Source: Gammaproteobacteria bacterium
GTDB lineage: Bacteria; Pseudomonadota; Gammaproteobacteria; Pseudomonadales; Pseudomonadaceae
DNA length: 32,068 nucleotides
NCBI GenBank assembly: GCA_012800475.1
Contig: JAAZJF010000213.1
Coordinates: 1-32,068, forward strand
Direction of reading: 5' to 3'
The translations under genes and the position numbers were made by a program. Shown here in pieces: positions 28,869-31,920 of the stretch. Positions within the stretch are counted from its first letter, which is position 1. The number at the start of each line of letters is the position of its first letter. The notes below the pieces were generated by a model, which was given only the letters and a program-made list of their open reading frames with translations, was not told where the DNA came from and ran no database searches.

Positions 28869-29813
28869 ATGAAAATTTTTTACGCCAGCGTGGCGTTATG
28901 TGTATCCCTGATATGCACCAGCCTACAGGCTGCAATCTATCCACCTTTACTGGAAGCACCTGCACTGGCTGAAGCGATCAGCGCACGCCCGCAGTTACAG
29001 ATCATTGATATCCGCGCTCCCGAAGACTATGCCAAAGGGCATATTGCCCACGCAGTTTCGGCGCCCTATGGGCAGTGGCGTGGTCCAGCTAACAATCCTG
29101 GACAACTGGAAAATGATGCCTACTTTCAACAACTGGTACGCAAACTGGGGCTGACTCAAGAGCAACCTATTGTTGTGTATTCCAGTGGTGTCGATGAAAC
29201 TGATTTTGGTGCTGCAGCACGCGTGTACTGGACGCTCAAGTATTTAGGTTTTAGCGACTTAAGTATCCTCAACGGAGGCTTACAGCAATGGGAGCAACCT
29301 ACCACAACGCAGGTTTCAACGGTGCAGAGCAGCCAAGTTAGCGTACAAGGCAACCCCAAACTGGTGATTTTTAAAGACGAGCTCTTGGATAAAATCACTC
29401 AGCACGATACCCGCTATCAACTCTTGGATGCGCGCCCACCGATTTTTTACCAAGGCCAAGTCAAAGCACCCACAGCCAGCACCAGCGGCACCATTGCCAC
29501 GGCACAAAGCCTGCCATTTGGGCAGTGGTTCAATAACAATGACACGCGCATACGACCTGTTGCCCAGATCAAGCGCTTAGTTCAAGAGCAAGAGCTCGAT
29601 CAAGCCCAAGAGACTGTTTCTTTTTGTAATACAGGGCACTGGGCCGCCACCAACTGGTTTGTTTTGTCAGAGCTTGCTGAGCTTAAAGATGTGCGCCTCT
29701 ACCCCGCCTCACTGGCCGAATGGACGCAAGAAAAATCAAGCTTGCCGATGGACAATACGCCCAGTCGCTTAGAACAAATCAAGTCCAAGTTTTCTCAACT
29801 GGTGAACAAATAA
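28869..29813 (+). CDS. Exported two-domain rhodanese (sulfurtransferase)
   Basis: Signal peptide; first domain IIDIRAPEDYAKGHI lacks catalytic Cys (VYSSGVDETD); second has SFCNTGHWAATNWFVL. Confidence 0.87.
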   Translation: MKIFYASVALCVSLICTSLQAAIYPPLLEAPALAEAISARPQLQIIDIRAPEDYAKGHIAHAVSAPYGQWRGPANNPGQLENDAYFQQLVRKLGLTQEQPIVVYSSGVDETDFGAAARVYWTLKYLGFSDLSILNGGLQQWEQPTTTQVSTVQSSQVSVQGNPKLVIFKDELLDKITQHDTRYQLLDARPPIFYQGQVKAPTASTSGTIATAQSLPFGQWFNNNDTRIRPVAQIKRLVQEQELDQAQETVSFCNTGHWAATNWFVLSELAELKDVRLYPASLAEWTQEKSSLPMDNTPSRLEQIKSKFSQLVNK

Positions 29814-29814
29814 C

Positions 29815-30906
29815 ATGAACAATCGTTTAGCGCTCGCTGCGGTCTTCGCAGTGTTTACCGCATTTTTATTTTGGTTTGTCTCGGTACGCCAAAGCTTATT
29901 ATTTATTGTCGGTATCGGGCTGGGTACTGTCTTAGCCGGTGCACGCTTTGGTTTCACCACCGGCTGGCGCAACCTGATTGAAAAGCGCGATGCCAGCGGT
30001 GTCTTTGCACAGATACTGCTCTTGGCTATTGCTGCTGCGCTCTCCATGCCGTTACTGGCCAGCTTCCCAACGGAGCTGAGCGCTGCATTAGGCCCACCGA
30101 GTATCAGCTTGCTGGTGGGTGCTTTAGTCTTTGGTGGCGCTATGCAAATTGCTGACGGCTGTGGCTCAGGCACACTCTATAAAGCGGGCTTAGGCATTCC
30201 GTTAAATATGGCGATTTTGCCTGTTTTTGCTTTAGGTAGTTTTTTAGGCTCAGCCCACCTAGGCTGGTGGCTGGACTTAGGTCACTTAGAGCCGGTGGGC
30301 TTAGTTGAAGAAGTGGGCCTAGGTGGCGCACTGGGTCTAACCTACTTGGGCTTGCTACTGACTGGTTTAGCCGCATGGTGGTGGTCAAGAAACAGTGCTG
30401 TAGCGCACACCCTATTTAATAAAAAACTGATCATCGGCGCCGTACTGATCGCCGTACTGGCTGTGTTGATCTTAGTGATTGCCGGTAAACCTTGGGGTGT
30501 GGTGTATGGCTTTGGTTTATGGGCGGCGAAAATTGCACAAGCAGGCAATCTGTTTGACCCCACCACCAACGCCTTTTGGAGTCAGTCCGTCAACGCTACA
30601 GCGCTCGAGCAATCGGTATTTTTAGACCTGACCTCCATTACCAATATCGGTATTTTAGCCGGTGCCTTATGGATTTTCTCACGCAAGAAAAGTGGCGAAT
30701 CCAATAAGCTCAATACCCAGCAATGGATTGTTGGCATTATCGCGGGCTTTTTACTGGGCTACAGTTCACGCTTAGCCTTTGGCTGTAACGTTGGCGCGAT
30801 GGTCAGTGGGATTTCAACAGGCAGTATTCACGGCTGGATTTGGGTGGTCATGGCCTTTTTAGGCTCATTGATTGGTGTACGTGTGCGCCGTTACTTTGGA
30901 TATTAA
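29815..30906 (+). CDS. YeeE/YedE-family (thiosulfate/sulfur-compound) transporter
   Basis: ADGCGSGTLYKAGLG and LAFGCNVGAMVSGISTGSIHGW sulfur-transport motifs; multi-TM. Confidence 0.88.
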   Translation: MNNRLALAAVFAVFTAFLFWFVSVRQSLLFIVGIGLGTVLAGARFGFTTGWRNLIEKRDASGVFAQILLLAIAAALSMPLLASFPTELSAALGPPSISLLVGALVFGGAMQIADGCGSGTLYKAGLGIPLNMAILPVFALGSFLGSAHLGWWLDLGHLEPVGLVEEVGLGGALGLTYLGLLLTGLAAWWWSRNSAVAHTLFNKKLIIGAVLIAVLAVLILVIAGKPWGVVYGFGLWAAKIAQAGNLFDPTTNAFWSQSVNATALEQSVFLDLTSITNIGILAGALWIFSRKKSGESNKLNTQQWIVGIIAGFLLGYSSRLAFGCNVGAMVSGISTGSIHGWIWVVMAFLGSLIGVRVRRYFGY

Positions 30907-30907
30907 G

Positions 30908-31066
30908 ATGAATAAATTACGTATTGTAGTGTTTTGGACACTCTTGGTTGGTTTCTTTGTGTGGGACTGGCACAGCGCGCAACCCGTTAACTTGCGCCTT
31001 GAAGCACCCATTATTGCGATCGGTTCAGGCCAAGCGCCGGCCGGCGGCCATTGCGCAACCTTTTAA
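30908..31066 (+). CDS. 52-aa single-TM protein with Cys-containing tail GSGQAPAGGHCATF
   Basis: MNKLRIVVFWTLLVGFFVWDWHSAQPVNLRLEAPIIAIGSGQAPAGGHCATF; starts 1 bp after the transporter stop; hairpin follows. Confidence 0.6.
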   Translation: MNKLRIVVFWTLLVGFFVWDWHSAQPVNLRLEAPIIAIGSGQAPAGGHCATF

Positions 31067-31080
31067 CACTGAAAGCCTAC

Positions 31081-31110
31081 AGCCGAACTCACAGCAATTT
31101 GAGTTCGGCT
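31081..31110. terminator. Hairpin between convergent small ORF and methyltransferase
   Basis: agccgaactca-cagcaatt-tgagttcggct, 11-bp perfect stem. Confidence 0.6.
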
Positions 31111-31143: not shown

Positions 31144-31920
31144 TTACACCGCTAAGCGCACACCCACCGAGACTTGCTTACTGTCCACCGCGGGCAGCAA
31201 AGTACCATCCTGATAATCAGACATAAACACTTCAGCAGCCTGAGTCACGCGCGTTTGAATCACTAAGCGCACGCGTCGACCCAGCACTTTTGCTTCCACC
31301 AGCTCCACCTGCTCGCCATCAATCCATGCTTGGCCGCTGAGCATTTGAAAGGTTTGATCCAAAACAACGCGGTACACTTGCCCTTCATCGCCAAGCCACT
31401 CCCACGTGCCTTGCAAAGGTGCGGGTACCACCCATTTGTATAAATACACACCGCCCATCGCGCGCTTTGCATCCGGCTGCCAGCGGCCCATATTAAAAGC
31501 ATGCGCAATAATACGCGTACCCGGTTGCAGCTCACTTAAAATACGTGCCTTTAACTTCACATTTAATGAAGGCAGCAAATACAAAGTCACCACAGTGGCA
31601 TCACTGAAGTCGACTGTCAGCAAATCTTCTTGCATAAAGGTGACACGGTCTTCCACGCTGATGGCTTGAGCCAGTGCATTCGCTTCAGCAATACGACGCG
31701 GATCCATATCAACTCCGATCGCCCGTGCACCACGCTCCATGGCGGCAGCCACGACAATACGGCCATCACCACAACCTAGGTCATAAAGAATATCATCCTT
31801 GGTTACGGCAGCCATTTTCAGCATCGCCTCAACCACCAGCTCATCGGTTGGTACAAAGATCACATCCAATTGTGCATCCACTTTGGTCAACCCTTCTTCA
31901 AAAACAAGTTCACTAAACAA
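31144..31920 (-). CDS. Class I SAM-dependent methyltransferase
   Basis: LYDLGCGDGRIVVAAAMERGARAIGVDMDP (motif I/II), LDVIFVPTDELVVEAML; TTG start uncertain. Confidence 0.78.
   Translation of the reverse strand: MFSELVFEEGLTKVDAQLDVIFVPTDELVVEAMLKMAAVTKDDILYDLGCGDGRIVVAAAMERGARAIGVDMDPRRIAEANALAQAISVEDRVTFMQEDLLTVDFSDATVVTLYLLPSLNVKLKARILSELQPGTRIIAHAFNMGRWQPDAKRAMGGVYLYKWVVPAPLQGTWEWLGDEGQVYRVVLDQTFQMLSGQAWIDGEQVELVEAKVLGRRVRLVIQTRVTQAAEVFMSDYQDGTLLPAVDSKQVSVGVRLAV

Follow-up and report, generated by a model that had tools for sequence, protein, structure and literature searches.

What role could a membrane protein of 52 residues play that is encoded directly behind an exported rhodanese and a YeeE/YedE-type transporter, and that carries a cysteine close to its C-terminus? 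The question arises from a three-gene locus in the window, i.e. the stretch of 32,068 nucleotides analysed here (Table 1). The small protein, MNKLRIVVFWTLLVGFFVWDWHSAQPVNLRLEAPIIAIGSGQAPAGGHCATF, is encoded from an ATG at 30908 to a TAA at 31064–31066; the stop codon of the transporter gene (TAA) occupies 30904–30906, leaving one base between the two genes. These positions agree with the initial annotation, which had put a 52-residue open reading frame 1 bp past the YeeE stop; the cysteine, which it had placed five residues before the stop, is actually Cys49, which is followed by only three further residues.

Table 1. Features of the rhodanese–YeeE–small protein locus in the window
Feature	Coordinates	Strand	Evidence
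Exported two-domain rhodanese, 314 aa, first gene of module; signal peptide ~residues 1–21	28869..29813	+	PF00581
Rhodanese active-site loop CNTGHWA, catalytic Cys253	29625..29645	+	sequence
YeeE/YedE-type sulfur transporter, 363 aa, second gene	29815..30906	+	PF04143
YeeE Gly46, at position of the third relay Cys (Cys22) of TsuA	29950..29952	+	phmmer alignment to 6leo
YeeE Cys116, equivalent to TsuA Cys91, in subfamily motif DGCGSG	30160..30162	+	alignment to 6leo
YeeE Cys324, equivalent to TsuA Cys293, first pore Cys from the periplasm	30784..30786	+	alignment to 6leo; Cys order PMC11073785
Small Cys-tailed membrane protein, 52 aa, third gene	30908..31066	+	ORF, homologues, purifying selection
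Predicted transmembrane helix, residues 3–23, with invariant Asp20 at its end	30914..30976	+	AlphaFold2; Asp in 63/63
Conserved tail GSGQAPAGGHC, predicted periplasmic and flexible	31022..31054	+	63-protein alignment; pLDDT about 45–60
Cys49, invariant in 63/63 aligned homologues	31052..31054	+	alignment
Hairpin after operon, probable terminator	31081..31110	+	fold z = -5.1

In a same-genus search, the small gene was found in 11 of 12 genomes, with 82–94% identity in the ten others. Among 16 close homologues, mean pS is ~0.66 as against a mean pN of ~0.09; omega (dN/dS) of homologues versus the window copy is about 0.02–0.08, and the variable sites are distributed over the three codon positions as 23/9/44, the third position accounting for 44 of 76. 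The conservation within the genus, the large excess of pS over pN and the third-position bias put the open reading frame far beyond chance: it is a real gene under purifying selection. A chance or decaying, untranslated open reading frame might be suggested by its shortness, the missing annotation and the lack of a family model, but the probability of this explanation is negligible, as it is ruled out by the low omega values and by conservation, including that of the cysteine, in three bacterial classes. No Pfam or NCBIfam model matches the protein, the gene being so short that the searched profile libraries contain no model for it. No solved relative was found; the sole structure match, to cytochrome b (E 0.33), is a chance match of a helix. 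A phage origin was likewise discarded, no relative being present among viral contigs. Only one annotated copy was found; it lies on a Palleronia plasmid, is labelled “hypothetical protein” and is preceded by genes for a “rhodanese-like domain-containing protein” and a “YeeE/YedE thiosulfate transporter family protein”, in line with the earlier statement that the protein is uncharacterised.

Behind the small gene, the terminator hairpin described initially was recovered as a strong fold whose stem comprises 11 bp (-21.4 kcal/mol for the stretch). As it lacks a clear T-run and is absent from the terminator scan, it is only a likely terminator. In several relatives, the equivalent place is occupied by a hairpin of another sequence. 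Downstream, a gene resembling SAM methyltransferases (window 31144–31920, minus strand) converges on the operon. It is kept within the genus; since a different downstream gene is found elsewhere, it probably does not belong to the module.

GTDB genomes were scanned with the peptide pattern [IF]A[ILF]GSGQA[PA] only, resulting in 59 loci from Gamma-, Beta- and Alphaproteobacteria, among them Denitrificimonas, Thiopseudomonas, Marinospirillum, Pseudomonas flexibilis, Candidimonas, Thauera, Tepidiphilus, Massilia, Rhodovulum, Roseivivax and others. As judged by tblastn with the window proteins, a YeeE gene is present at all 59 loci and a rhodanese gene at 54, the remaining five being cut by contig ends, and the triad persists with YeeE identities down to about 42%. 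The start of the small gene mostly lies between -4 and +20 bases from the YeeE stop, in a few cases at 40–55 bases. The small gene, proposed from the window as the third gene of a rhodanese–transporter unit, is the third member of a conserved rhodanese and YeeE gene set in three proteobacterial classes. Weak family matches (E 0.0015–0.01; L020–L032) were rejected on account of wrong context or internal stops.

Because these 59 loci had been chosen by the small protein, a search based on YeeE was run in the phylum and in two families. In one YeeE subfamily (clade A, usually with the motif [DLM]GCGSG), the small gene is present at all 38 complete loci, and a small gene of the GSGQAxxGGHC type was found in none of the sister subfamily (GGGC[GA]SG). 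In a tree of 83 YeeE rows, those with and those without the small gene are split on one branch with a support of 100/100, most of the “with” rows coming from the scan based on the small protein. Among the residues that tell the two subfamilies apart are G42, G156, V230, T276, A310 and S317. One genome of the genus (G004, 99% complete) has neither this YeeE nor the small gene, the other 11 genomes having both; it represents a natural loss of the whole module. The small gene marks a defined three-gene module in Thauera, Denitrificimonas, Thiopseudomonas, Marinospirillum, Rhodovulum and other genera.

Such a perfect tie to one YeeE subfamily with defined residue differences, and a tree that splits on a single branch, would also fit a structural or gating subunit, whose helix stabilises the membrane domain of YeeE while its tail closes the periplasmic mouth like a plug, or lines it, and the cysteine serves as a fixed extra pore thiol. 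One-helix subunits of other complexes are exemplified by CydX and AcrZ. We regard such a structural or pore-lining subunit as the main rival to a sulfur relay, but as an unlikely one, for reasons that emerge from the predicted structure and from the sister clade.

In the alignment of 63 small proteins, the Asp at the helix end, the motif Ala-x-Gly-Ser-Gly and the cysteine are all invariant, whereas Gln and His of the tail occur in 60 and 61 of the 63 proteins, respectively. The cysteine lies outside the search pattern, so its invariance was not imposed by the search. Further members retrieved via YeeE keep the cysteine; the Gln is variable, and Phe sometimes replaces His. The initially proposed motif GxGxxxxGGHC is close to the real one, which reads GSG, then usually QA, followed by x-x-G-[GA]-[HF]-C; the expectation that the cysteine tail be conserved beside other YeeE genes was borne out at the 59 pattern loci, by the 63 aligned proteins and at the 38 complete subfamily loci. 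The nearly invariant His48-Cys49 pair (61/63) would fit a metal or redox accessory, i.e. a tail that binds copper or zinc, or that keeps the thiols of rhodanese and YeeE reduced or disulfide-linked, and the Cys-rich repeat tails of the sister clade described below point the same way. However, several alphaproteobacterial members (L106, L107, L139, L142, L145–L147 and L149) have Phe for His, a single cysteine makes a poor metal site, and the module contains no metal gene; this explanation appears quite improbable.

AlphaFold2 predicts the one transmembrane helix that had been suggested from the window sequence, and a disordered tail. By charge, the N-terminus is inside in 59 of the 63 small proteins, with four ties; since the charges put the N-terminus inside, the tail should be in the periplasm, on the same side as the exported rhodanese. 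The window protein has the features of the GSGQAxxGGHC family, namely one N-in helix ending in Asp, AxGSG, a near-terminal cysteine, and a position directly after a rhodanese-linked YeeE. A fusion of YeeE and the small protein, obtained by in-frame read-through of the YeeE stop codon in Thiopseudomonas denitrificans (L062), was also modelled. Its transporter and helix are predicted with confidence (mean pLDDT 87.4, pTM 0.88), and the model matches the TsuA structures 6leo and 8k1r (Foldseek, E about 2e-9). Most of the last 14 residues have pLDDT values <50, and AlphaFold2 does not place the tail of the small protein near a cysteine. A tail that is predicted to be disordered even when fused to YeeE argues against a structural plug, but the rigid GSG motif favours it.

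Of the partner proteins, YeeE belongs to the Sulf_transp/YeeE-YedE family (PF04143, E 2.7e-42, 145.9 bits vs a cut-off of 27). It keeps two of the three relay cysteines of TsuA (Cys22, Cys91 and Cys293): the positions of Cys116 and Cys324 are occupied by cysteine in 83/83 YeeE rows, and Gly46 is invariant in both subfamilies. In TsuA, thiosulfate has been proposed to pass from Cys293 via Cys91 and Cys22 to Cys17 of TsuB (PMC11073785), and the two-Cys transporter YedE1E2 was reported to import zero-valent sulfur (PMC10812762). The window YeeE does not reach the cut-offs of the TsuA equivalogs NF052577 (35.7 of 400 bits) and NF041049 (25.2 of 645 bits). The idea that the tail cysteine replaces Cys22 of TsuA was rejected, since the tail is predicted to lie on the opposite membrane side and Cys22 is likewise missing from YeeEs that have no small gene. 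The same genome carries a separate YeeE match on another contig (C242:3988–4609, minus strand; L002, L179), with an adjoining TusA/YeeD-type gene, at the contig end; the module is therefore not the genome's only YeeE.

The rhodanese (PF00581, E 4.9e-25, two stretches) has an N-terminus, MKIFYASVALCVSLICTSLQAA, that reads as a Sec signal peptide, and the loop CNTGHWA is found in 52 of 54 homologues. A module for selenium rather than sulfur was considered, as the selenium transporter model YedE/FdhT (NF033796) gave the best NCBIfam transporter score for YeeE, 79.5 bits, and the rhodanese scored 62.5 bits against the selenite/tellurite protein ExtH. Both values, however, are far below the cut-offs of 350 and 200 bits, respectively. 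Moreover, two genomes that are 99–100% complete (G006, G007) have the module but no SelD over cut-off, and in G004 SelD is present but the module is absent. With no tie to SelD within the genus, the selenium reading was rejected as highly improbable.

Sister-clade YeeEs with a nearby rhodanese are directly followed by other one-helix small open reading frames with different cysteine tails: CAPCGAPCPS (L112, L114, L123), NPCA repeats with 20–28 cysteines (L117, L126, L130), four PC motifs (L109) and MPCGLGG (L108). Their helices all end in Asp (Asp-His), and none of the eight matches a Pfam or NCBIfam family over cut-off. Taking both clades together, with clade-A genes taken from the HMM where a simple hydropathy scan had missed them, a Cys-tailed small open reading frame follows 45 of 46 rhodanese-linked YeeEs vs 1 of 26 for which no rhodanese was found (Fisher p about 4e-17, a value that is overstated because related loci are not independent). 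The one exception among the 46 is L154, of the GGGCGSG type, with no Cys-tailed small open reading frame directly downstream in the stretch read; the one among the 26 is L153, for which the contig comprises only 881 bases upstream. That the linkage tracks the rhodanese too, and that the multi-Cys repeat tails look like carriers and not like plugs, speaks against a purely structural subunit. We tentatively propose, at somewhat less than even odds, that rhodanese-linked YeeEs generally need a membrane-tethered, Cys-bearing periplasmic arm, realised by unrelated-looking tails (GSGQAxxGGHC, CAPCGAPCPS, NPCA repeats, MPCGLGG) on a common N-in helix that ends in Asp. If true, such arms would form a new class of sulfur-delivery subunits, feeding protein-bound persulfide straight into the importer, with no soluble Sox carrier.

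A different arrangement was observed for YeeEs without a rhodanese or small partner, which often end in a C-terminal cysteine of their own (SGC, LTGC, PTAC, AASC; L110, L113, L118–L120, L122, L124, L125, L127, L128, L131, L132). This cysteine is probably on the cytoplasmic side.

The reading we prefer for the small protein, with a probability of about 0.5, is that of a membrane-anchored arm whose periplasmic cysteine transfers sulfane sulfur between the rhodanese and YeeE. Its one helix, with the N-terminus inside, would probably pack beside YeeE and hold the Gly-rich flexible tail with its invariant cysteine in the periplasm. The exported rhodanese would accept sulfane sulfur from a donor such as thiosulfate or polysulfide on the catalytic cysteine of its CNTGHWA loop and hand it over to the tail cysteine as a persulfide; the tail would present the sulfur to Cys324 of YeeE, the first pore cysteine, from where it would proceed via Cys116 to the cytoplasm. 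The working mode might resemble that of the non-homologous swinging arm of SoxY. The data establish the gene, its conservation, its strict linkage to one YeeE subfamily and to the rhodanese, and the invariant cysteine; we infer the topology, the contact with YeeE, the sulfur loading, the direction and the substrate of this relay. Consistent with such a relay are the triad, the tie to clade A, the invariant cysteine, the charge-based N-in orientation, the flexible tail, the rhodanese-linked Cys tails, the two TsuA relay cysteines kept in YeeE, the zero-valent sulfur import reported for the two-Cys YedE1E2 (PMC10812762), and the published Cys relay in TsuA (PMC11073785). Counted against it are the spacing GSG-x-x-x-x-G-x-C, which is more rigid than a mere flexible linker needs and fits docking, the AlphaFold2 models, in which the tail is not placed near a cysteine, and the Cys-to-Cys gap of about 7 Å in TsuA, because of which other authors have questioned whether persulfide hops directly (PMC11582611).

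We rate the module as known in kind, being a YeeE-family sulfur-uptake system, and its Cys-tailed subunit as undescribed in the open-access literature. That literature describes YeeE with TusA, the YTD cluster, Sox systems and one Cys-less one-helix protein, and no Cys-tailed partner; as subscription papers were mostly outside this survey, an earlier description is possible. The authors of the SoxT study leave unsettled which carriers and which sulfur species are involved and how sulfur passes from Cys to Cys (PMC11582611). A tethered Cys arm in nearly every sampled importer locus that adjoins a rhodanese offers a concrete single-residue test of persulfide delivery.

Among the known systems, the YTD cluster found in cable bacteria and their relatives (PMC13047784) likewise belongs to sulfur metabolism and places small uncharacterised proteins beside a YeeE, but the two hypothetical proteins in it are reported as components of a DsrEFH-like complex, and no one-helix Cys-tailed protein is described. 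PmpAB/YedE1E2 shares the two conserved pore cysteines and the reported inward transport of zero-valent sulfur; it consists, however, of two half-length proteins linked to PDO, again with no Cys-tailed helix described (PMC10812762). Hden_0678, a protein of 56 residues encoded near soxT1A (PMC11582611), is similarly small and without an assigned function, with one helix and its N-terminus in, near a YeeE-family gene; unlike the small protein it is without cysteine, and the likeness is one of description.

The C-terminal arm of SoxY carries the motif GGCGG, and the tail of the small protein reads GGHCATF. SoxYZ and SoxT (PMC11582611, PMC11237559) resemble the module in that a periplasmic cysteine near a flexible C-terminus acts as carrier, as would be the case for the small protein, next to a YeeE-family importer, and the SoxY arm is thought to feed SoxT (PMC11582611). 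SoxY, however, is soluble and folded and has a different arm, whereas the small protein is membrane-anchored; no sequence relation between the two was found, no SoxY domain was detected with Pfam or NCBIfam, and the module contains no sox genes. TsuA-TsuB (YeeE-YeeD; 6leo, 8k1r; PMC11073785) has in common with the module the YeeE fold, two relay cysteines and an adjoining gene for a small Cys-bearing partner. The partners differ, as the small protein has neither a Pfam match (TusA, PF01206) nor a CPxP motif: TsuB, of the TusA family, is a soluble enzyme in the cytoplasm, at the exit, whereas the small protein is one helix without a TusA domain, with its cysteine predicted at the periplasmic entrance of a YeeE that is without a Cys22 equivalent and to which an exported rhodanese has been added.
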